A stretch of DNA of 64,000 bases from Roseimicrobium gellanilyticum (GTDB lineage Bacteria; Verrucomicrobiota; Verrucomicrobiia; Verrucomicrobiales; Verrucomicrobiaceae). The stretch is taken from contig NZ_QNRR01000005.1 of NCBI RefSeq assembly GCF_003315205.1, positions 62,001-126,000 on the forward strand, read 5' to 3'. Below, piece by piece: positions 25,434 to 45,146 of the stretch (positions within the stretch are counted from its first letter, which is position 1; the number at the start of each line of letters is the position of its first letter). Position numbers and translations under genes: made by a program. The notes beneath the pieces were generated by a model. It saw nothing but the letters and a program-made list of their open reading frames with translations, searched no databases and was not told where the DNA came from.

Positions 25434-28268
25434 TCATTTCCCCTTCTGCTTCCCAATGAGCCCCCAGATTGTGATGCCGTAGCACGCGAGAATCCAGATG
25501 CCCAGGATCGTGGCGGAAGTCATGGCCGGTGCGGTGAACCCGTACAGCGTGCCCATCTTGTAGCGCACGTCGTTGCGCTGTTCGGTGCTCTCGTCGTACT
25601 TCTTCACGCCGCGCTGGATGCGGAAGGCATTGTGGTGCTGGCCCACGCGGTTGGGGAAGACGATCAGGTTCTGCCAGCTCACATTCCAGTCAGAGACCTT
25701 GTCATACTTCTCGGTGGTGGATTCGCCGAGTTCGGTCCACGTCACTTCCTCCTGTTCACCCGTCGGCGTGAGGAAGACGGGATACTTCGTGCGATTGGTC
25801 ATGCGCGGTGTGATCTGGCCGTATATGCCGGCCACGTCCATCATGCGCTGGGCGCAGTAGCTGGGGACGAACTCGCTCGCGAAGCGCACACTCGGAGTCA
25901 TCTCCGGGCGCGTCACCACGAAGCCGCCAAAGAGGATCTGCGGAATGAGCACGAGCGGCACCCACATCACGGCCTGGGTGCTGGTGCGCACCAGACCGGA
26001 AATCGCGAGGCCAATGGTCACGCCCACCAGCGCTGCAGCGAAGAGTGCCGAGAATTTCAGCAGCAGCACCAGGAAAATGATGCCCAGGGTCTTCGACTTG
26101 GTATCAGGACTCGGAGGCTGGCCTTCGCCCGGATCCGTGGTGTCCATGATGTTCTGGCCGCATTCGAAGAAATTTGCCACGCGCAGCAGCGAGGTCATGA
26201 GGAAGCCCGGGCCCTTGGGTTTGGGCACTTCAGCGGCAGGCGCTGCTGTTGCTGCCGGTGCGGCTTCTTCCTTACCCTTGGTGTCCTCGGTGACGATGTC
26301 GAACTCATCCACCTGCGCCTGCACGGAAGTGGTGGCCGCCGCCACGCCAGGTGCCGCGGTCGGCGCCGGAGTCAGGCGTGTGGTCATCACCTCCATGTAC
26401 TTCGTGCTGTTGAAGTCTGAGGGGTTGATGATGTGCGCCGTGGTCAGCGTCACCAGATAGAGCAACAACGCCTGCAACGTGGTGACGATCGCAAAGAACA
26501 CGTACTTGCTCTGCAGGTATGCATTCAATCCCAGGCCGCACACGCGCTCGCGACGGAAGATGGAAATCTCACGCACGATCTGCTGCGCACCATTGCTGCA
26601 ACCGAACCACAACGTGGCCACCACACAGAGGAAGGTGCGCAGCACCGCATCATCTGCCACCCAGCCCACGAGCAGGCCAATCAATATGGGCTGTGCGAGC
26701 AGGAAGAGGAGATTCAGCAAGTCTGCCCTCAGGATGCTCCACTGACGCTGGAGCTGGATGATGAGTGTGGGCAACCAACCCGGTCCGCGCTTCGGTTTCA
26801 CCTGCTGCGTGGTGTCTTCCTGCGCGGGTGGGAGATACGCGAGCGGTTTCGCGGCGGGACGTGAGGCTTCAAATTCATCACGCCAGTTCGCGCCCGTGCG
26901 CGTTTCGTCTCCACCGACCTTCAGGTAGATTTCCTCAAGACCATTCTCCACCTTGAAGTAGTCCACCGCTTCATCGGGAGTGCCGTTGAAGATGATGTGA
27001 CCGCCGTGAACAAACAGGAGCTGGTCAAAGAGATACGCGCGACCGAGCACGTGCGTGGTGCAGATGACCGTGCAATCAGTACCAGCGAGGCGGCGCAGCA
27101 GCGACATCAGGTCAAACTCCGTCTTCGGGTCGAGACCGCTGGAAGGCTCGTCGAGAAAGAGCACGCTTGGCTTGGCCAGCAACTCGGTGGCGATACTCAC
27201 GCGCTTGCGCTGGCCACCGGAGAGCATGGAGATGCTTTTCTCCTTGTGCTCCGCAAGACCGAGGCGCTCGATGGTTTCCTCCACAAGATCGCGAATCGCC
27301 TTGCGCGGTGTGCCGCTCGGCAGCTTCAGCCGCGCGCTGTACGTAATGGCCTCCGTCACCGTCAGCTCGAGGTGCACGATGTCATCCTGCGGCACGTAGC
27401 CGATTCCTGCGGCAGCCATCTGCCGGGAATCGCCCAGCTTCACGCCGTTGATGTAGCTCTCACCGCTCGTCGCCGGGTTCACACCGCAGAGCGCGTTCAT
27501 CAGGGTGCTCTTGCCCTGGCCGGATCCGCCGAGGATGCCCACGAAGGAGCACGGGGAGATATCCAGCGAGATCTGATTCAGGATGTTGCGCCCGTTCTGC
27601 AGGGTGAAGGTCAGATTGCGCGCTTCCACTTTGGCGCCGCCGAAAGCAGACACACGACGCAGGGATGTGCCGGTGAACTCAAAGGTGTAGCTTCCCAGCT
27701 TCAGGCGATCGCCCACAATGAGCTGGCGCCGGTCGAAGCGCTGGCCATTCAGCAGCGTGCCGGTCTGGCTCTTGTCAGTGACGAACACCACGCCAGGTTC
27801 CGTTTGGTCGAGCTCCAGATGCTGGCGGGAAACGCGTGCGTCCTCGCTGTCGAGTTCCACCTTGGGATCGGCAGTCTGCTCACCGGTGGCACGACCCAGC
27901 GTGAGCTTGTTCAGACCGCGCAAGACCACTTCATTGGTCTCCACTCCGCGGAAGCGCGGCGTCATCGGCGTGAGTCCGAACCGGATCAGCACGTCAGGCA
28001 TTTCAATGATGTCGCCGTCTTCAAGCGATGCAACGGAGGACAAAAGCTGGCCGTTCAGCCGCAGTGTTTTCTGGGCGGAGGGACTGCCGGCGCTCAGCAA
28101 CCAGGAAGAAGCGCGTGGCTCCCAGGCAAGCGTGGCATGGAGGGATTCGATGCCCTTTGCCGCCAATTGCAGATCCGCGCTGGGAGAGTTGCCGATGCTC
28201 GTAGAGGTTTTGTCGAGCGCGAAGGCGCGGAGATCGCCTTGGAATGCGAGGGTGATATGGCCGTTCAT
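25434..28268 (-). CDS. FHA-FHA-ABC transporter, ABCG-like with ABC2 membrane domain
   Basis: A 944-residue protein. Two N-terminal FHA-like domains come first: one at about 5-100 and a better-conserved one at about 112-200 with GRA at 125 and SRQHLEL at 147. Then an ABC ATPase (about 213-450; Walker A GGSGQGKST at 247, signature LSGGQRKRVS at 349, Walker B VLFLDEPSSGLD at 369). The C-terminal half has ABC2-type membrane helices, with a long Ala/Pro-rich insert near residues 640-700. FHA domains bind phosphothreonine, so transport or assembly may be steered by the Ser/Thr kinases in this genome. Single-gene ABCG half-transporters usually dimerise. Followed closely by a second ABC gene. Confidence 0.9.
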   Translation of the reverse strand: MNGHITLAFQGDLRAFALDKTSTSIGNSPSADLQLAAKGIESLHATLAWEPRASSWLLSAGSPSAQKTLRLNGQLLSSVASLEDGDIIEMPDVLIRFGLTPMTPRFRGVETNEVVLRGLNKLTLGRATGEQTADPKVELDSEDARVSRQHLELDQTEPGVVFVTDKSQTGTLLNGQRFDRRQLIVGDRLKLGSYTFEFTGTSLRRVSAFGGAKVEARNLTFTLQNGRNILNQISLDISPCSFVGILGGSGQGKSTLMNALCGVNPATSGESYINGVKLGDSRQMAAAGIGYVPQDDIVHLELTVTEAITYSARLKLPSGTPRKAIRDLVEETIERLGLAEHKEKSISMLSGGQRKRVSIATELLAKPSVLFLDEPSSGLDPKTEFDLMSLLRRLAGTDCTVICTTHVLGRAYLFDQLLFVHGGHIIFNGTPDEAVDYFKVENGLEEIYLKVGGDETRTGANWRDEFEASRPAAKPLAYLPPAQEDTTQQVKPKRGPGWLPTLIIQLQRQWSILRADLLNLLFLLAQPILIGLLVGWVADDAVLRTFLCVVATLWFGCSNGAQQIVREISIFRRERVCGLGLNAYLQSKYVFFAIVTTLQALLLYLVTLTTAHIINPSDFNSTKYMEVMTTRLTPAPTAAPGVAAATTSVQAQVDEFDIVTEDTKGKEEAAPAATAAPAAEVPKPKGPGFLMTSLLRVANFFECGQNIMDTTDPGEGQPPSPDTKSKTLGIIFLVLLLKFSALFAAALVGVTIGLAISGLVRTSTQAVMWVPLVLIPQILFGGFVVTRPEMTPSVRFASEFVPSYCAQRMMDVAGIYGQITPRMTNRTKYPVFLTPTGEQEEVTWTELGESTTEKYDKVSDWNVSWQNLIVFPNRVGQHHNAFRIQRGVKKYDESTEQRNDVRYKMGTLYGFTAPAMTSATILGIWILACYGITIWGLIGKQKGK

Positions 28269-35817: not shown

Positions 35818-36597
35818 CTACTTGGCTTTGAACCAGTTCGACTCGGGAAAGATCTCGTCATGGATGCGCTTGTCAGAGGAGGCGTAGTCGAAGTCGCGGA
35901 AGAGCGGTTTCCAACCCATGCCATCCAGTACGAGGTCCTGGTTCACCCGGACAATCGTCGCGGCGTCCTCGATCCCGGCCAGCACCCGCAGGTCATGTAC
36001 CTGGGTCATGATGTGACTGCCCATGGTCATGGCAATCAGGGAGAAGGCCTGTAACTCCGTGGTCATGTGGGGTGAGGGAGGCAGGTCACCGCTGGTCTGG
36101 CCATCGATGATGGCCTTGTGCACCGTGCGAAAGCACCGCCCCCCCTCGACGGCGTGCTTTTGCCGCTGGGCCTCCGAGGCCTTTTCCCAGAAGGAATCAC
36201 TCTTCAGCATGAGCTCCGCGCTGAAGTAGTTCGGATACGTGAGCATGAACTCCACACAGGCATAGCCGATGGCGCGGATGCGTTCCCGACTGCCACCTGT
36301 GAACTTCAGCGCACGCTCAAAGAGGTCCGCCCGATGCCGTAGCGCTCTGGTGGCCACGGCCAAGGCCAGGTCCTCCTTGGACTGGAAGTGGAGGTAGATG
36401 GTCCCCTTGGAGTACTCCACCGCTTGGGCCAGCTCGTCCAGGTTCACGTCCTGATACCCGTCACGCCGGAACAAACGCTGGGCGTGGTCGAGGATGAGTT
36501 CCTCCCTTGCCTGGCGCTCGCGTTCTTTGCGGGTAGCGGTCACAGTACCCACATTGGCAGGTTTTTGACTCTCAGTCAAATTCTTCTTTCGAGTCAC
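35818..36597 (-). CDS. TetR/AcrR family transcriptional regulator
   Basis: A 259-residue regulator. A TetR_N helix-turn-helix lies at about 30-78 (ILDHAQRLFRRDGYQDVNL, AVEYSKGTIYLHFQSKEDLA), and the rest is the ligand-binding and dimerisation domain. The open frame starts with GTG at 36597, overlapping the upstream gene's stop (GTGA). However, a TGACT-N3-AGTCA palindrome falls on codons 7-11 of this reading, so a later GTG (codon 16 or 19) is equally possible. It lies inside the membrane-protein/exporter operon and probably represses it until an exported compound binds. Confidence 0.88.
   Translation of the reverse strand: MTRKKNLTESQKPANVGTVTATRKERERQAREELILDHAQRLFRRDGYQDVNLDELAQAVEYSKGTIYLHFQSKEDLALAVATRALRHRADLFERALKFTGGSRERIRAIGYACVEFMLTYPNYFSAELMLKSDSFWEKASEAQRQKHAVEGGRCFRTVHKAIIDGQTSGDLPPSPHMTTELQAFSLIAMTMGSHIMTQVHDLRVLAGIEDAATIVRVNQDLVLDGMGWKPLFRDFDYASSDKRIHDEIFPESNWFKAK
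36566..36578. promoter_or_regulatory. Candidate TetR operator 2 (TetR start region)
   Basis: TGACT-ctc-AGTCA, extending to TTTGACT-ctc-AGTCAAA (36564-36580, perfect 7-bp arms). It shares its arms with the site at 35784-35796. It lies at the very start of the tetR reading frame, close to the end of the upstream membrane-protein gene. Confidence 0.6.
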
Positions 36598-37514
36598 AAA
36601 GTCGGCTCCTTCCTGAGGGAGAGTGCCCCGGACTTCCTACCCTTCGCCAACCACCACATCCAGAAGGGGATATTCACCAGAAAGATGAAGCACATCATCT
36701 GGTTCACCCGGAAGTCGAGCTGCATGATCAACTCCACTCCGAAGTGGAAGGCAATGATGCTCAGTCCGATGAAAAGCGCCCATGCACGGTTCCAGAGGGC
36801 AAGGAAGGCAAACAGCTCCAGCATGAACCCGGCGCCAAACGCGAGGCGGGTGACGACGTGGTGCTCTGCCAGCCACTGGGCGATGGCTGATACCTGTGGC
36901 ACTGCGAGACCCTCTGGGTTGTCATAGAAGGTCTGCCGGTGGGTCTTGACGATCGACTTCGCGAGGTAGTGGCTACGGAAAAGCCAGAGCCCATCGGACT
37001 TGCTCAGTTTCGTGATGGCGGAGGTCACGTACACCGCGGCGATGGCGCACTGTGCGAAGTAGAGCTGATACCCATGGCGCACTGCATCCGCCACGGCGCC
37101 CCCCTTCTCCAACAGCGGCCGGATCCTCCACCACAGCTCGGCGACGCATTGGGCGATCAACACAAGGCCGATGATGTTGTACCCGTGGTAGGTGAAGCCC
37201 TGGGAATTCTGGAGCGTGTTGTAGCCCAGGTGAGCCAGTGTCAGCACCACGAGGCCAAGGGGATTCAGCCACTCAAGTACGTATAAGATGGCCGCGCCGA
37301 TGATGAGCGGGCGGAACCACAGCATGGCATCCTCACCACCCAGGAACTCCAGCGGTATGATGCGGGCCAACCCGTTGGGTACCTCCATCTTCTCAAAGGG
37401 AAGCACCTTCCACATGCACCACACGGCGGTGATGGCAAAGAGGAGGCGCATGAGCCGCGCCTCCCAAGGTCCCACGTTCACGGGGCGGAATGCCTGGGGA
37501 GAAAGCTTGATCAT
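36594..37514 (-). CDS. HTTM-like polytopic membrane protein
   Basis: A 306-residue membrane protein with about seven hydrophobic helices. The layout, with a His/Asn-rich loop (GYNTLQNSQGFTYHGYNIIG) and a mid-protein segment SAITKLSKSDGLWLFRSHYL, resembles HTTM proteins related to vitamin K-dependent gamma-carboxylase. That assignment is moderate. It overlaps both neighbours by 4 bp: its start overlaps the stop of the small protein gene upstream and its stop overlaps the TetR start. It therefore belongs to the regulated exporter operon. Function is not known. Confidence 0.65.
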   Translation of the reverse strand: MIKLSPQAFRPVNVGPWEARLMRLLFAITAVWCMWKVLPFEKMEVPNGLARIIPLEFLGGEDAMLWFRPLIIGAAILYVLEWLNPLGLVVLTLAHLGYNTLQNSQGFTYHGYNIIGLVLIAQCVAELWWRIRPLLEKGGAVADAVRHGYQLYFAQCAIAAVYVTSAITKLSKSDGLWLFRSHYLAKSIVKTHRQTFYDNPEGLAVPQVSAIAQWLAEHHVVTRLAFGAGFMLELFAFLALWNRAWALFIGLSIIAFHFGVELIMQLDFRVNQMMCFIFLVNIPFWMWWLAKGRKSGALSLRKEPTL

Positions 37515-37975
37515 CCTTCGCCAAGCACCTGGGGTTCCTCGCGGAAGGCCGCGCCGTCCTTGTAGTCCTGATAGATCAACACATTCGTGATGCGCACCTT
37601 GTCCGGCAGCGGACGCTTGCGCTTGTCTGCGAGCTCACGCAACTGCCGCATAGTTTCCGCGAACACCTTCGCGCGGATCTCTGGCGTCGCTTCCGTGGGT
37701 TCGATGTCCAGCTTGCTGCAGGTGCGGTTGAGACGCTCGGTGTAGATCTTCTTCACCTTCGCGGAACTCAGTCCGGTCATGTGCTTCACATTGATCGGAT
37801 TGCCAGCGCCATCCGCCACGATCAGGTAGTCGGAAGGGTGCGGGCTGGGATCCGCATACATCGGGAAGCTGTTGAAGGGGTACGCATTCTTCACCACCCG
37901 GCACAGCAAAACGAGCACCACCATCATCATGACGGGATGAATCAGCATGCGTGCGATGCGGGACCACATGCTCAT
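37511..37975 (-). CDS. Single-helix membrane protein, HTTM-associated
   Basis: A 154-residue protein with one N-terminal helix (PVMMMVVLVLLCRVV), then AYPFNSFPMYADPSPHPSDY, a motif often seen in small proteins encoded beside HTTM membrane proteins. The rest is soluble and probably outside the cytoplasm. Its stop overlaps the start of the HTTM-like gene (ATGA). It is the first gene of the five-gene overlapping operon ending in the exporter. No enzymatic motif is visible. Confidence 0.7.
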   Translation of the reverse strand: MSMWSRIARMLIHPVMMMVVLVLLCRVVKNAYPFNSFPMYADPSPHPSDYLIVADGAGNPINVKHMTGLSSAKVKKIYTERLNRTCSKLDIEPTEATPEIRAKVFAETMRQLRELADKRKRPLPDKVRITNVLIYQDYKDGAAFREEPQVLGEG

Positions 37976-38591: not shown

Positions 38592-41500
38592 GTGAAAATC
38601 AGACCTCTCATCTCAGCCAGCCGCCGGGGCGTTGCCCTCGTGATGGTGGTGGCCATGCTGGGCCTCATCACCGTGCTGGTGCTCGCGCTGTATTCGCTTG
38701 CGGAGTCCGAACTGAAAGGCGCCCGCCACTATTCCAGCGGCCAGCAGTCCCGGCAGATCTCTGATGTGGCCGTGGACATCGTCATTTCCCAGCTTCGCAA
38801 GAGCACCACGCAAAGCGACACGGCCAACGGCCGAGAAATCTGGACCTCCCAGCCCGGTCTGGTGCGGCGCTATGCCACCACTGGAAAGTTGCAGGCCGCC
38901 TACAAGCTCTACTCGAGCTCGCAGATGGCCCTGGCAGATGAACCCAAGCTGGAGGACAAGCTGCTCAAAGATGTCCCTCCGTCCGACTGGACCGCAACGC
39001 CAGAGCGCTATGTGGATCTCAACCAGCCGGTGGTGCGGACGAATCACCTGGGCCAGCCGCGCCTCCTGTTTCCAGTGATCGATCCGCGCGCGATGTCCGG
39101 TGCGGACGACGCGGTGCACGGTTTCAAATACACCGACACCTTCATCGGTGGCAGCAAGATCCAGGGAGTGGTCACCCAGGCGGGAGACGGACAGCGCCTG
39201 CCCATGCCGGTCGAGTGGATCTATGTGTTGAAGGACGGAAGTCTGGGAACGTTGGATCCAGACAAGCGATTCACCGGTCGCGTTCCTGCCACCAAGGAGA
39301 ATCCCATCGTGGGTCGCGTGGCCTTCTGGACGGATGATGAAAGCAGCAAGGTGAACATCAACACCGCGTCCGAGCCCACCTTCTGGGCGCCTCCCACTTT
39401 CTTCCATGATGAGGATGCATCATGGGCACGCTATCAGCCGGTGAATGGCGAGTTCCAGCGGTACCCCGGCCACCCGGCCACCACCGCGCTGAGCCCAATC
39501 CTTTTCCCGGAAAAGCAAATCGAGTGGGAGGACAAGGAACTCATCTACGGCCTTGTGCCCAAGATCGGACCGGGAGGCACCAAGGGCGGTACCGTCTCCT
39601 ATGACGATCCCAAGATCGAAGCCGTGAACCTCAGCCAGTTCCGCAAGGAGCGCCTGTATGCGAGCCTCGATGAATTCCTCCTGAAGGAAGATCGCACGCA
39701 GAATGACTTCGGTGCTGCAGATGTGGGGCCTGACAAGCTGCAACGCACGGGCTTCTTCCTCACGGCGCGCAGTCGCGCGCCGGAGTCGAATCCATTCGGC
39801 CTTCCGAAGATCGCTACATGGCCGGGGAACTATCGTGGCCCGGAGTATCGCAGCAAGTACGACACGGTGATCGCCTTCTGCGCCACCCTCGCGAAGCTCG
39901 GTGGGAAGAGGCAATACATGTTCCAGCGCGGCTATGCGGACTCTCCGACCATGGATGTGACCCAGGCGGATAACCAGGCGCTGCTGAACTACCTGCTGAA
40001 CCAATGGCAAAAGCCGGTGCCCGGGTTCTCCGACGACGCGAAAAAGAACTTCAACACCAAGTACGGCGAAGACCTGCCTCAGATCCTCGTGGAGATCTTC
40101 GACTACATCCGTTCCGTCAATCTTCATGACGGATACCTGGCCGATCCCAGCGACAAGCCGGCGAATACCACCGCGAACTTCATGCTCGGATATCAGGGTT
40201 CGTACACACGCCCGATCAAGTTCAAGACCTTCACCGATCCGCGGTTCATCCATACAGGCGCGGATGCGGAAACGGGCGAGCCGGTGGAGCACGAGTTCCT
40301 GGCCTTTCCCGGTCACGGCCAGGTCACCCCCTCCGTGTGGACGCGCAATGGAAAGAGCTATGAAGGCATCGCGCGCTTTCCCACCATCACGGAGGCTGGT
40401 CTGCACTTCATCTGCGCTGCGGACAACACCAACGATCCCAACAATCCCTTCGCCAAGGTGTCGGCAGCCATTGGCAAGCCGGGTGGCGGCAGCGCTCCCA
40501 AGCTCCGGCCGAAGGCGAATGATCCCACCGATCGGTGGTATTCCAACTTCCCGCCCAATCCTGTTGGCAAACCCTACGGTCCGGATGTGAATCATCCCGG
40601 ATACCAGAAACCAAACTGGAACTGGCAGTTGGAGCCGAACAAGCCACTGCCTCCGGGCAAGCGCCGTATCCAGGCCCGCTTCCTGTTGGAGTTTTTCATT
40701 CCGGCTGCGGGGTACACCATCATTGAGCCGGAGTTTTCCGTGAAGGTGAAGGGGCTGAAGAACTTCAAGATCGTGCATCCCAATGGCACGCAGACGCAGC
40801 TCTTCCCCAATGAGGATCTCGTCGTGCGCACCGGTCGCCGCGCCACCCATGTGGGAAACCAGGAAACCGGCGGCTATGGACTTGGGCTGAAAGGATTCCT
40901 CCGTGAGCGCGAGGCACCTGCGCGTGCGCCGATGCCCGCGGACAACCAGTGGGGCGCGGTGCCCTGGCAGGTGAAGCCCTCCTCGGACACGCCAGCTCCT
41001 CTCAGCGTGCTGAACTACGATCTCATCAGCAATTTCGTCGACATCGAAGTGGGTGAGGATGGCTCCATCCCGATGCTAATCACCGGAGCCAATGTCGAAC
41101 TTGAGATCTACAGCGGGCACCTGGGCAAGATCGTGGCGCTTCCTGAGATCGCCGCCACACGTGTGCAGACGCTGCAGCTCAATTTCCCCTCGAACACGGT
41201 GAAAGCTCCGACGCTGGTGCGTGTGCCCATCGAGGCCATCACCAATGCGAAGGGCAAGGTCACGGACCCCGAGGTCGAGGCGCCGTATTGGTGGACCTTC
41301 TACGGCAAAGGTTGCATGGGCTTCGATGTCGACAGCCTGAAGAAAGGTACTGCCCAGGTGATCGGCGGGCGCTTCTGGGGATCCAACTCCGAGCCCCAGG
41401 CCAGCAACCAGCTTCGCCGGGGGGCATTCTTTTATGGCTTTGATCCGGACATCGCCGGGGCGCCGCGTCCCTTCCGTCCAAAGCTCACGCCGAACAAGCC

Positions 41501-42836
41501 GGCGGTGGGTGAAGAGGCCGAGGGCAGCGATGTCGTGCAGACCATGCTTATCAAGCACGGCGACTACCGTCTCACCGCGGCCTCGCCCGTGGTGGACGCC
41601 AGCCAGTGGAAGCCTCACCGCAACTGGGGCTCGCGCAGGCTTGCGCATAACTTCAGCAACTTCGTCTCCCAGCAGATGCCGGGTTATGACTATGGTGGAA
41701 ACACGGATTACGAAAACCGCCTCGTGCCAAACAAGGCCGGAGATGCTGGACAGAAATATGCGAACAACCGGATTCCCGATTTCCCTTTCTTTACCGAAGC
41801 GGCGAGCGCGGCGCACAGCACCTGGGATTTCGACAATGGCACTGGCCCCGCGCGTGACGGTCCCTACATCAACAAACCCGATGAAGGCAATCTGAACAGC
41901 AAGAATGGACTCGCCTATTTTGTAGATGCCGGGAAGCAGCAATCCATGGGGGAGAACTTCTTCTCGCCGAACCGGCAGATCCCTTCCCCGGCGGTCCTCG
42001 GATCCCTGCCCACGGGAGTGAAAGCAGGCAAGCCGTGGCGCACCTTGCTCTTCCGTCCGCAGGAGGGACATCCCGGTGGCTCGCAAGCAAATGGCGGGCA
42101 GGATCCTCCGGATCATCTCTTCCTTGAGTTCTTCTGGATGCCGGTGGTCGAGCCCTACGCGATCAGCGAACCCTTCAGCACGGCGGGCAAGATCAATCTC
42201 AACTACCAGATCTTCCCTTTCACAAACATCCGTCGCGCGAGCGGGCTGCACGCTGTGTTGGAAAAGGAACGTCTCACAGCCGTGAACAAGGGGGACATGT
42301 CCGACTACAAGGCATGGCCTGTCGCGGGGAACAACGAAACATTCTGGAAGGAGCAGGATGGGAAGACCTGGCATCGCAAGCTGGACATCGAAGCCACGCT
42401 CAAGCAGTTCGATCAGCGCTTCAATGTCGGCAGGGCCTTCATCACCCCGAGCGAGATCTGCGATATCCACCTCATCCCGGTGGGTGTGGAGAGCGCGGAG
42501 GACATGCCGGACTTCTGGGCGGACCATCGTCTTACGGGTGACAACACCCGCGAGCGCCCCTACGCGAATATCTATCCACGCCTCACCACGCGCTCCAACA
42601 CCTTCAAGGTGCACTACGTCGCACAGTCCATGGTGAAGGCGCGCTCCACCGCCCCTGATGTGGTGGACAACGAAGTGGACAAGATCACCAGCGAGCACCG
42701 CGGTTCCACCGTGATCGAGCGCTACCTCGACCCCGCGCAAAAGAACCTGCCCGACTTCACCTCCGGAGTCACCACAGACACACTCGACCAGTACCACCAG
42801 TTCCGCGTCATCGAGACCAAGAAGTTTGGGTCGTAA
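38592..42836 (+). CDS. Verru_Chthon cassette protein A (giant GspK-like pseudopilin)
   Basis: A 1414-residue protein, first of the four-gene cassette known from Verrucomicrobium and Chthoniobacter. The GTG at 38592 gives a short basic leader and SRRGVALVMVVAMLGLITVL, a prepilin-type signal cut after Gly. Position +5 is Met, not Glu, as in GspK. Further inside, DDESSKVNINTASEPTF resembles the conserved INxNTA segment of GspK. The remainder is a very long extracytoplasmic region of unknown fold, rich in Pro, Asn, Lys and Trp. The open frame extends back to a TTG at 38451, but that leader is implausible. Probably a tip subunit of a pseudopilus-like apparatus (inference). Confidence 0.88.
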   Translation: MKIRPLISASRRGVALVMVVAMLGLITVLVLALYSLAESELKGARHYSSGQQSRQISDVAVDIVISQLRKSTTQSDTANGREIWTSQPGLVRRYATTGKLQAAYKLYSSSQMALADEPKLEDKLLKDVPPSDWTATPERYVDLNQPVVRTNHLGQPRLLFPVIDPRAMSGADDAVHGFKYTDTFIGGSKIQGVVTQAGDGQRLPMPVEWIYVLKDGSLGTLDPDKRFTGRVPATKENPIVGRVAFWTDDESSKVNINTASEPTFWAPPTFFHDEDASWARYQPVNGEFQRYPGHPATTALSPILFPEKQIEWEDKELIYGLVPKIGPGGTKGGTVSYDDPKIEAVNLSQFRKERLYASLDEFLLKEDRTQNDFGAADVGPDKLQRTGFFLTARSRAPESNPFGLPKIATWPGNYRGPEYRSKYDTVIAFCATLAKLGGKRQYMFQRGYADSPTMDVTQADNQALLNYLLNQWQKPVPGFSDDAKKNFNTKYGEDLPQILVEIFDYIRSVNLHDGYLADPSDKPANTTANFMLGYQGSYTRPIKFKTFTDPRFIHTGADAETGEPVEHEFLAFPGHGQVTPSVWTRNGKSYEGIARFPTITEAGLHFICAADNTNDPNNPFAKVSAAIGKPGGGSAPKLRPKANDPTDRWYSNFPPNPVGKPYGPDVNHPGYQKPNWNWQLEPNKPLPPGKRRIQARFLLEFFIPAAGYTIIEPEFSVKVKGLKNFKIVHPNGTQTQLFPNEDLVVRTGRRATHVGNQETGGYGLGLKGFLREREAPARAPMPADNQWGAVPWQVKPSSDTPAPLSVLNYDLISNFVDIEVGEDGSIPMLITGANVELEIYSGHLGKIVALPEIAATRVQTLQLNFPSNTVKAPTLVRVPIEAITNAKGKVTDPEVEAPYWWTFYGKGCMGFDVDSLKKGTAQVIGGRFWGSNSEPQASNQLRRGAFFYGFDPDIAGAPRPFRPKLTPNKPAVGEEAEGSDVVQTMLIKHGDYRLTAASPVVDASQWKPHRNWGSRRLAHNFSNFVSQQMPGYDYGGNTDYENRLVPNKAGDAGQKYANNRIPDFPFFTEAASAAHSTWDFDNGTGPARDGPYINKPDEGNLNSKNGLAYFVDAGKQQSMGENFFSPNRQIPSPAVLGSLPTGVKAGKPWRTLLFRPQEGHPGGSQANGGQDPPDHLFLEFFWMPVVEPYAISEPFSTAGKINLNYQIFPFTNIRRASGLHAVLEKERLTAVNKGDMSDYKAWPVAGNNETFWKEQDGKTWHRKLDIEATLKQFDQRFNVGRAFITPSEICDIHLIPVGVESAEDMPDFWADHRLTGDNTRERPYANIYPRLTTRSNTFKVHYVAQSMVKARSTAPDVVDNEVDKITSEHRGSTVIERYLDPAQKNLPDFTSGVTTDTLDQYHQFRVIETKKFGS

Positions 42837-42878
42837 CGAAATCGAAAAACAAAAGCCTTCATCCCCCAACGACAAGAC

Positions 42879-43406
42879 ATGCAATCGAACCTGAACCGAC
42901 TGAAGTCCCGCTTGCTCCAGGGCTTCTCCCTGCCTGAAGCCACCATCTCCATCGCCATAGCGGCGCTGGGGCTGACCTCCCTGCTGGGCTTTTTGCCGCA
43001 GAGCATGCACACCCTCAAGCAGGCAGGAGACATCGCCACGGAGACCCGTATCACCGAGCAGATCCTCTCCAGCATCTCCAATTCCGAATGGGTGGATGCC
43101 TCTGGCAACGACGTGCTCACGAATGAATACCAGGGCAAGCGGTACTACTTTGACGACCTCGCCGTGGAGCTCGACTCCAAGAATCCCGGTGACTGGGTGT
43201 CCTATGTCGCTGAGGTGGAAGTCCCGCAGTCAGACATCTCGCTTCCTGCCACGAGCCCGGTCCCGAACAATGGTGATTCCGATCCCTACCTGCGTCGTGT
43301 GGTGGTGAAGGTGGGTAATGCCAACAGCACCCAGTTCAGCTTTGACGATGCGCCGGCGTCGACCTTCCGCACCTACGCATCCGTGGTTTCGCGTTCAGGA
43401 AAATGA
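42879..43406 (+). CDS. Verru_Chthon cassette protein B (GspI-like pseudopilin)
   Basis: A 175-residue protein with a class III signal: LLQGFSLPEATISIAIAALG, cleaved after Gly with Glu at +5, followed by a hydrophobic helix. Length and position fit the Verru_Chthon protein B family. By signal type and size it parallels GspI. Its stop overlaps the start of protein C (ATGA), so the two are co-translated. It starts 42 bp after protein A. Expected to be processed by a prepilin peptidase encoded elsewhere. Confidence 0.88.
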   Translation: MQSNLNRLKSRLLQGFSLPEATISIAIAALGLTSLLGFLPQSMHTLKQAGDIATETRITEQILSSISNSEWVDASGNDVLTNEYQGKRYYFDDLAVELDSKNPGDWVSYVAEVEVPQSDISLPATSPVPNNGDSDPYLRRVVVKVGNANSTQFSFDDAPASTFRTYASVVSRSGK

Positions 43407-44515
43407 GAGCGCAGCCATTCCATCGTGCGAAAGCTTCCGGCTTCACCCTGCTGGAAATCATGATCTCCACCGTGATCGTGTCCGTGATCATGCTGGTGTG
43501 CGTCACCGCGCTGGATCAGACACAACGCACCTGGAAGTATTCGCAGGCGAAAGTGGAGCAGTTCCGTGAAGCCCGCCTCGCCTTTGAAGCCATCACCCGA
43601 CACATCTCACAGGCGACATTGAACACGTACTGGGACTATCACTATGCGGAAACAGGCACGAATGAGGCGCCGCCTGATGCCGCCGTGCAGCCCAGCGCGT
43701 ACGTGCGCTTTTCCGAGCTTCAATTCCGCACCGATCAAACCATCAACCTCCTCGGAGCGACCACCACCCCCGCGGATCACCCGGGACATGCCGTTTTCTT
43801 CCAGGCGCCTCTCGGACTTTCGCAGCAGCATCGGGAGTTGGGCACCCTGCTGAATGCGCGTGGCTATTTCATCGAGTTCGGCAGTGATGTGAAGGATCGC
43901 CCTCCGTTTCTCGGTCAGCGTGGCATCGCAGAAAAATTTCGTTACCGCCTCATCGAATACCGCCCGCCTTCCGAGCGCGCTACCAGCGCGCCTGCATCCA
44001 CTGAGCAGGGGAACACGGTGTACGTGAAGCCGGATGAATGGTTCCGCCAGGATCTCGCGACTTCATCGGAGCCACTGGCGGACAACATCATCCTCCTGCT
44101 CGTGTCTCCGCGTGTATCGGAGGCCACCGCAAAGGCTGCCAATCGGAATGTGTCATGGGTCGCCCCCAGCTACCGGTATAACTCACTCGATACAGACAAC
44201 AGCACGACCACGGTGGAGCCCGTCCAGCTCAATGAGGACGGCTCGGCGAAACAAGGCACACAACACCTGTTGCCACCCCTCGTGCAGGTGACTCTCGTGG
44301 CGCTGGACGAGCCCTCGGCACAACGTCTGGCAGAGCAGCACCGTGACAAGCCCGTGGATCTTCTGGCCGAAGCCAAGTCCACCTTCACGGAAGCGGCTTT
44401 CTACGAGAGGGATCTCGGAAGGTTGAAGGACCACCTCTCCGCCCAGCGGCTGAATTACCGCGTCTTCACCGCCGCCGTCGCCATGCGCAACGCGCGCTGG
44501 GATGGACGCGAATAG
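43403..44515 (+). CDS. Verru_Chthon cassette protein C (GspJ-like pseudopilin)
   Basis: A 370-residue protein with the prepilin signal ASGFTLLEIMISTVIVSVIM (Gly before Phe, Glu at +5) and an N-terminal helix continuing to ALDQTQRTWKYSQAKVEQFR. The body is long and mixed in composition. It matches Verru_Chthon protein C in order and size and parallels GspJ, which is likewise the larger of the Glu5-containing minor pseudopilins. It overlaps protein B by 4 bp and lies directly before protein D. Confidence 0.88.
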   Translation: MRAQPFHRAKASGFTLLEIMISTVIVSVIMLVCVTALDQTQRTWKYSQAKVEQFREARLAFEAITRHISQATLNTYWDYHYAETGTNEAPPDAAVQPSAYVRFSELQFRTDQTINLLGATTTPADHPGHAVFFQAPLGLSQQHRELGTLLNARGYFIEFGSDVKDRPPFLGQRGIAEKFRYRLIEYRPPSERATSAPASTEQGNTVYVKPDEWFRQDLATSSEPLADNIILLLVSPRVSEATAKAANRNVSWVAPSYRYNSLDTDNSTTTVEPVQLNEDGSAKQGTQHLLPPLVQVTLVALDEPSAQRLAEQHRDKPVDLLAEAKSTFTEAAFYERDLGRLKDHLSAQRLNYRVFTAAVAMRNARWDGRE

Positions 44516-44528
44516 CCCAAGCCACTTC

Positions 44529-45146
44529 ATGAAGACCCATCGCGCATTCAAGACCACCGGCACGGCAGGATTCACCCTGATCGAAATGCTCGTGGTCATC
44601 GTCATCCTCGGCTTGCTCATTGCGATCAGCGCCCCGGGGATTGATGGCATTCTGCGCTCGACACGGCTGAGTGCGGCTGCCGATGACGTCCGCAACTTTC
44701 TCTCCAGTGCCCAGCAACTCGCCGTGGCGCAGAATGTGGAGGTGGAGGTGCGGCTCTACGAATCCGTCAGCGGCACCGCGGTGGATGACACCCCGCGTGT
44801 GCGTACGCTGCGGACTCTCGTATTGCGCACCAGCGACATTGGTGTCGAGGGAGACTACAAGCCTGAGGGCGTGGCATTGAAACTCGACGACTCGATGGCC
44901 ATCAGCAGCGAGACGCAACTCACGTCACTGCTTGGGAGAGCCTTCAAGTCAGCGGGCACAAATGAAGAGGGCAGGTACGTCTCCTTCCACTTTTTCCCAG
45001 ATGGCTCGACCGATTTGCCGTCCACACAGGCCTGGTTCCTCACGATTCTGGAGGCGAAGCATGCCTCGCAACAGAATGCACCGGCGAATTTTGTGACCAT
45101 CCAGGTCCACCCTACCAGCGGCAAGCTGCGGACCTTCCGGCCCTGA
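44529..45146 (+). CDS. Verru_Chthon cassette protein D (GspH-like pseudopilin)
   Basis: A 205-residue protein with the prepilin signal TAGFTLIEMLVVIVILGLLI, very close to GspH. The rest (DDVRNFLSSAQQLAVAQNVE) follows the GspH pattern of a helix then a beta-rich globular domain. The ATG at 44529 gives a 14-residue leader. An earlier ATG at 44502 overlaps the end of protein C and would give a 23-residue leader; neither has an obvious ribosome-binding site. Last gene of the cassette. Confidence 0.88.
   Translation: MKTHRAFKTTGTAGFTLIEMLVVIVILGLLIAISAPGIDGILRSTRLSAAADDVRNFLSSAQQLAVAQNVEVEVRLYESVSGTAVDDTPRVRTLRTLVLRTSDIGVEGDYKPEGVALKLDDSMAISSETQLTSLLGRAFKSAGTNEEGRYVSFHFFPDGSTDLPSTQAWFLTILEAKHASQQNAPANFVTIQVHPTSGKLRTFRP

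Follow-up and report, generated by a model that had tools for sequence, protein, structure and literature searches.

A Verru_Chthon gene cassette resembling a type II secretion pseudopilus tip with a greatly enlarged GspK-like subunit

The window analysed here is a stretch of 64,000 nucleotides of the Roseimicrobium gellanilyticum genome. Four genes, named A to D, follow one another on its + strand between positions 38592 and 45146 with no interruption, B and C overlapping by 4 bp and C and D by 14 bp. A preliminary description of this DNA had recognized four consecutive prepilin-type genes in this region, and their open reading frames, strand, coordinates and signals were all confirmed. The genes, together with three segments of protein A, are the following:

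38592..42836, + strand: protein A, GTG start, 1414 aa; Verru_Chthon A, TIGR02600; minor pseudopilin resembling GspK but carrying very large insertions
38592..38768, + strand: class III signal RRG/VALVM of protein A with the beginning of its N-terminal pilin helix, the helix being visible in the model of a homologue
39321..39371, + strand: conserved FWTDDESSKVNINTA segment of protein A, comparable to iNvNtA in GspK, with which it has a weak profile match over 18 columns
42573..42660, + strand: C-terminal YPRLTTRSNTFKVHYVAQ segment of protein A (YPRLTTxSNTFxVHY), aligning with the C-terminal strands of GspK over 28 columns (E=0.0026, best among K, J, I and H; weak on its own)
42879..43406, + strand: protein B, 175 aa; TIGR02598; prepilin-type, with a GspI-like N-terminal profile
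43403..44515, + strand: protein C, 370 aa; TIGR02599; predicted GspJ fold
44502..45146, + strand: protein D, 214 aa, or 205 aa if translation starts at an internal ATG; TIGR02596; prepilin-type, with a GspH-like N-terminal profile

All four proteins start with a class III prepilin signal. In A this signal reads RRG/VALVM and carries a Met rather than a Glu at position +5, while the Glu is present in B (QG/FSLPE), C (SG/FTLLE) and D (AG/FTLIE). This pattern, already pointed out in the preliminary description, is that of the GspH-I-J-K tip of type II secretion systems (T2SS), and it extends to the homologues. The Glu is absent from 86 of the 87 A homologues that have a recognizable site, and is found in 72/74 B, 70/76 C and 73/75 D homologues identified by HMM, several of the exceptions among the last three being partial or mis-framed ORFs. 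The INxNTA-like segment formerly noticed in A is present as well, as TDDESSKVNINTA, and is strongly conserved across the A paralogues.

The four genes constitute the Verru_Chthon cassette A-D of NCBIfam, all of them scoring above the curated cut-off of their model (TIGR02600, 987.6 bits; TIGR02598, 73; TIGR02599, 341.5; TIGR02596, 126.3). These families have no assigned function in NCBIfam, and a literature search on the Verru_Chthon family names found no paper using them. The GspK model NF037980 matches A over residues 12-87 only (E=1e-6, 28.6 bits), below the whole-protein score of more than 130 bits that defines the GspK equivalog, so that A is classified by this profile as GspK-like and not as a GspK equivalog. 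Protein D is matched by the GspH model TIGR01708 with E=1.1e-8. Searches of A against the sequences of PDB chains, with the single sequence or with a profile, returned nothing relevant.

In profile-profile comparisons, the best score of each cassette protein was obtained with a different tip subunit: A with GspK (75.4, against 32.4 or less for the others), C with GspJ (90.4, the next being 57.0), D with GspH (81.0, the next being 67.0) and B with GspI (61.5), in this last case by a small margin over GspJ (55.9). The significant part of these matches is the N-terminal stalk, and none of A-D remained significant once it was removed. The pairing of B with GspI and of D with GspH, proposed earlier from signal form and size, therefore holds as the best profile match in each case but depends on the stalk. 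To judge from sequence, B and D may adopt the GspI and GspH folds.

For A, a structure was predicted from 76 A proteins for the homologue of locus L095, which is 1190 aa long and ~38% identical to A of the window (pLDDT 87.2, pTM 0.89). Aligned with VIA-align, this model matches GspK (3ci0_K) with a Z of 10.0 and an rmsd of 3.6 over 252/280 residues, the next unrelated fold reaching Z 4.1. Foldseek alone, applied to the 1190-aa model, did not single out GspK, which it ranked 42nd with an E of 1.1. Since the match to 3ci0_K is spread over model residues 46-1190, A is predicted, by way of this homologue, to consist of a GspK core into which some 900 additional residues are inserted. An Ig-like identity (ApaG, GH2 domains) was considered for the insertion and rejected, a Z of about 4 being too weak to name it. 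Protein C of the window was itself predicted from 62 relatives (pLDDT 87.6). Its model matches the GspJ structures EpsJ, XcpW and GspJ with Z 9.5-11.0 (3cfi_B, 11.0; 6utu_H, 10.7; 3ci0_J, 10.4), the next unrelated row being at Z 4.5, and its predicted fold is that of GspJ. The preliminary description had read the four genes as a tip of the K-I-J-H type headed by a GspK-like subunit several times the normal size, and would have withdrawn this reading if A had resembled GspK neither in profile nor in structure. A resemblance was found in the profiles and, for the homologue, in the structure, and together with the profile pairing and the GspJ fold it supports the earlier reading as largely right. 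The simplest reading of the locus is a T2SS-type tip whose GspK is greatly enlarged.

In agreement with the reported absence of gspD/E/F/G, no T2SS machinery was recognized in the window, and 89 cassette loci, most of them of 19-24 kb, did not yield a single T2SS machinery gene. A cassette carrying its own T2SS machinery is thereby ruled out, and neither the window nor any of these loci corresponds to a canonical gsp locus, encoded with gspD/E/F/G. The term orphan, applied to the cassette in the preliminary description, is thus appropriate for the window but not for the genome. Indeed, two T2SS gene sets, whose main components were checked, lie elsewhere in the genome, each with its own H, I, J and K (one on contig C20, the other on C22 plus C5). 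The genome search suggested at the time yielded three GspG genes, GspF, several GspE/PilB ATPases, secretins (GspD) and a type IV prepilin peptidase, all gene calls being made from ORFs and profiles rather than from curated annotation. In the window, at 36594-37975, two adjoining genes on the - strand encode membrane-protein-like products with no Pfam match; a relative of the larger one lies near the prepilin peptidase region (L041, 10261-11115), with a small gene beside it too.

Beyond the single locus first described, the genome contains 11 paralogous cassettes, many of them beside large exported proteins. B, C and D, searched for with paralogue profiles, accompany A in 11/11 loci. The tips therefore outnumber the major pseudopilins, with 11 A genes for three GspG. 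In the single-contig relative G395, at least 14 A rows were counted against 3 GspG, the A copy numbers in relatives being lower bounds.

The named loci with A all belong to Verrucomicrobiota records, for example Verrucomicrobium, Prosthecobacter, Chthoniobacter and Spartobacteria. The existence of these relatives, added to the 11 copies in one genome, argues that the cassette is not a chance arrangement. In the family of the window, A is carried by 27/30 genomes, and GspG is present in 27/27 of these. GspG was found in two of the three genomes without A; the assembly of the remaining one is 76% complete. The gene order varies between ABCD, BCDA, BCAD and DBCA. The distances among A, B, C and D proteins nevertheless covary, as expected of one inherited unit, with a Mantel r of 0.75-0.85 over 65 loci (those from related strains not being independent) and of 0.85-0.89 for A against B, C and D in the 11 paralogues of the source genome. 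Two other arrangements were encountered. At L103 and L118, unlike other cassettes, A is divergent from a separate D-C-B block, and at L054, L056 and L057 of Verrucomicrobium, two or three close A genes lie by a PATR gene with no recognized B, C or D between them.

On a larger scale, a sample of 388 genomes of the phylum contained 8 above the A cut-off and 208 in which the E of the match was 1e-3 or lower. These matches lie mostly at the N-terminus, and their ORFs are often 700-1400 aa long. Twenty of these phylum-wide A-like loci (L151-L170) were read; clear adjoining prepilin genes of the D, B or C kind were seen in 6/20 and none was detected in the others, which suggests that giant GspK-like proteins may form a wider class than the cassette. 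The ORFs of these loci, about 920-1400 aa in length, match part of the A profile only, and L170 has three D-like genes.

The neighborhood of the cassettes was examined for exported proteins. The source genome contains 149 matches to the PATR repeat. Grouped according to contig and to the length of the frame, they correspond to about 26 ORFs (591-8045 aa), a count that is approximate. Six PATR ORFs are next to cassettes, at 5 of the 11, where about 0.08 would be expected, itself an approximate figure that assumes an estimated 6900 genes or so. When the source genome and the others are taken together, a PATR/PEP-CTERM ORF of at least 400 aa, detected in the other genomes with a custom profile and pattern, is found within 600 bp of 24/69 evaluable cassettes. 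Over all loci, 27/29 adjoining instances are on the same strand as the cassette (binomial P 8e-7, related loci being counted separately), and the gap is often of 4-50 bp. At locus L032 (G000:C1, around 583000-626000), the cassette is placed between two giant PATR ORFs of the same strand. The upstream one, of 8045 aa, ends in a PEP-CTERM-like tail, and the downstream one measures 3631 aa.

Among the other neighbors in the same orientation are genes for glycoside hydrolases, namely a rhamnosidase of family GH106, a cellulase combining GH5 and CBM9, and GH2 enzymes, as well as for a Calx-beta/PKD protein. By visual inspection, several cassette neighbors start with Sec-type signals. Genes for GH130 and LacI are likewise found repeatedly near cassettes, which places some of these in sugar-utilization loci. 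Such is the situation of L071, L094, L095, L096 and L100, some of which have a GH5 or GH2 gene on the other side. GH130 phosphorylase matches account for 5/56 same-strand neighbors. Some of the linked enzymes (GH130, and one GH2) are probably not exported. No PATR/PEP-CTERM neighbor was detected for 45/69 evaluable cassettes, including that of the window, and the notion of a PATR/PEP-CTERM partner for every cassette was therefore rejected. In the window, the cassette has no cargo-like neighbor and lies near a TetR-type regulator, genes with no Pfam match and a tRNA-Val. Further away, at 25434-28268, an ABC transporter protein of 944 aa combines N-terminal FHA-domain stretches with fused ATPase and ABC-2 membrane domains.

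Three observations suggest exchangeable tips matched to their cargo: the paralogues are numerous, no cassette was found with machinery genes next to it, and many cassettes are linked to large exported proteins. The ratio of 11 cassettes to three GspG genes points to a few machines shared between them. Exchangeable, cargo-adapted T2SS tips served by few shared machines are the best explanation of these data, and probably the correct one. The cassette would then encode an enlarged minor-pseudopilin tip of the T2SS kind, in which A, B, C and D would take the places of GspK, GspI, GspJ and GspH. The four proteins are predicted to be processed by the prepilin peptidase of the genome, after which their stalk helices would come together within the inner membrane. 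The resulting bundle would cap and prime a GspG pseudopilus made from a T2SS locus elsewhere. The roughly 900 inserted residues of A, with the insertions of C, may form a large periplasmic head, which would receive a particular large exported protein and push it through the secretin. Where a giant PATR/PEP-CTERM protein or a secreted glycoside hydrolase is encoded in apparent operon with a cassette, that protein would be the putative cargo.

The cassettes might instead form the tips of a type IV pilus, or of another type IV filament, with A as an adhesive head exposed at the surface on a pilus leaving the cell and the linked PATR/PEP-CTERM proteins as its partners in adhesion. PilB-like, PilT-like and further secretin loci do exist in the genome, C matches the type IV-like pilin TTHA1219 of Thermus (Z 10.8) as well as GspJ, and B matches PilV and XpsI equally weakly. 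A precedent is also provided by Myxococcus xanthus, in which the Kil Tad pilus has exchangeable heads formed by four paralogous KilLMN complexes at its tip (PMC12075869). This interpretation is nevertheless unlikely, because the A homologue matches GspK along nearly the whole GspK chain, and because, among the T2SS tip subunits compared, the D and A profiles prefer GspH and GspK. The Kil system resembles the cassettes by its scattered clusters of paralogous minor pilins with extra domains, serving one filament machine. It differs from them by its Tad-type pilins, its L-M-N trimer tips and its role as a predation pilus, the cassette being T2SS-like. In the T2SS reading, exchangeable cassette tips would be analogous to the adaptable tips of the Kil pilus.

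The cassettes could also be accessory pseudopilin sets that assemble with the T2SS and do not select cargo, their linkage to exported proteins reflecting shared regulation or the co-transfer of surface loci. That most cassettes, the present one among them, have no detected PATR/PEP-CTERM neighbor fits such a view, as do the sugar-utilization neighborhoods with GH130 and LacI genes. The same-strand orientation of nearly all adjoining instances, many of them within 4-50 bp, is however better accounted for by an operon than by loose clustering, and this makes the accessory role distinctly improbable. An independent surface or envelope structure, relying on prepilin processing without the machinery of either a T2SS or a T4P, would agree with the 89/89 loci devoid of T2SS machinery and with the giant A-like ORFs of the phylum that have no recognized prepilin gene beside them, but is very hard to reconcile with the GspK and GspJ folds and the K-I-J-H-type signals, which indicate a conventional tip role.

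Seen as exchangeable T2SS tips, the cassettes can be compared directly with GspH-I-J-K (XcpU-V-W-X, EpsH-I-J-K). Both comprise four prepilin-type proteins with a K-like member devoid of Glu at +5, and they share the GspK fold (for the A homologue), the GspJ fold (for C) and N-terminal profiles that pair with K, I, J and H. The cassette departs from the known tip by the length of A, 1414 aa against about 300-330 aa for GspK, by its score below the NCBIfam GspK cut-off, by a varied gene order outside the gsp operon and by a copy number that can reach a dozen or more in one genome. PilY1 with the T4aP minor pilins (PMC7541494) is another case in which a type IV filament is primed, at the tip, by a large partner carrying a head. 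In the cassette, the large head would be built into the GspK-like pilin itself. PilY1, unlike A, is a separate non-pilin protein.

It has long been asked how a T2SS selects what it exports, and a published description of the Xcp tip calls it critical for substrate recognition and binding (PMC6211770). The presence of 11 paralogous tips and three GspG genes in a single genome, together with cargo-like neighbors, makes the matter accessible to a direct swap experiment. A bolder and more tentative proposal, about which some doubt is in order, is that Verrucomicrobiota possess one or few T2SS machines and a library of exchangeable tips, each headed by a giant GspK adapted to its cargo, with the specificity for cargo residing in the tip and the cargo often encoded next door. 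If true, a function would be given to four NCBIfam families that have none, and an export route to very large surface proteins, such as the PATR ORF of 8045 aa, and to enzymes that degrade polysaccharides, in a phylum that matters for carbon turnover. One alginate-degrading verrucomicrobial genome is reported to encode 67 homologues of a PulG-like pseudopilin (PMC13274419), which suggests that the expansion of pseudopilins in this phylum is wider than the Verru_Chthon cassette.
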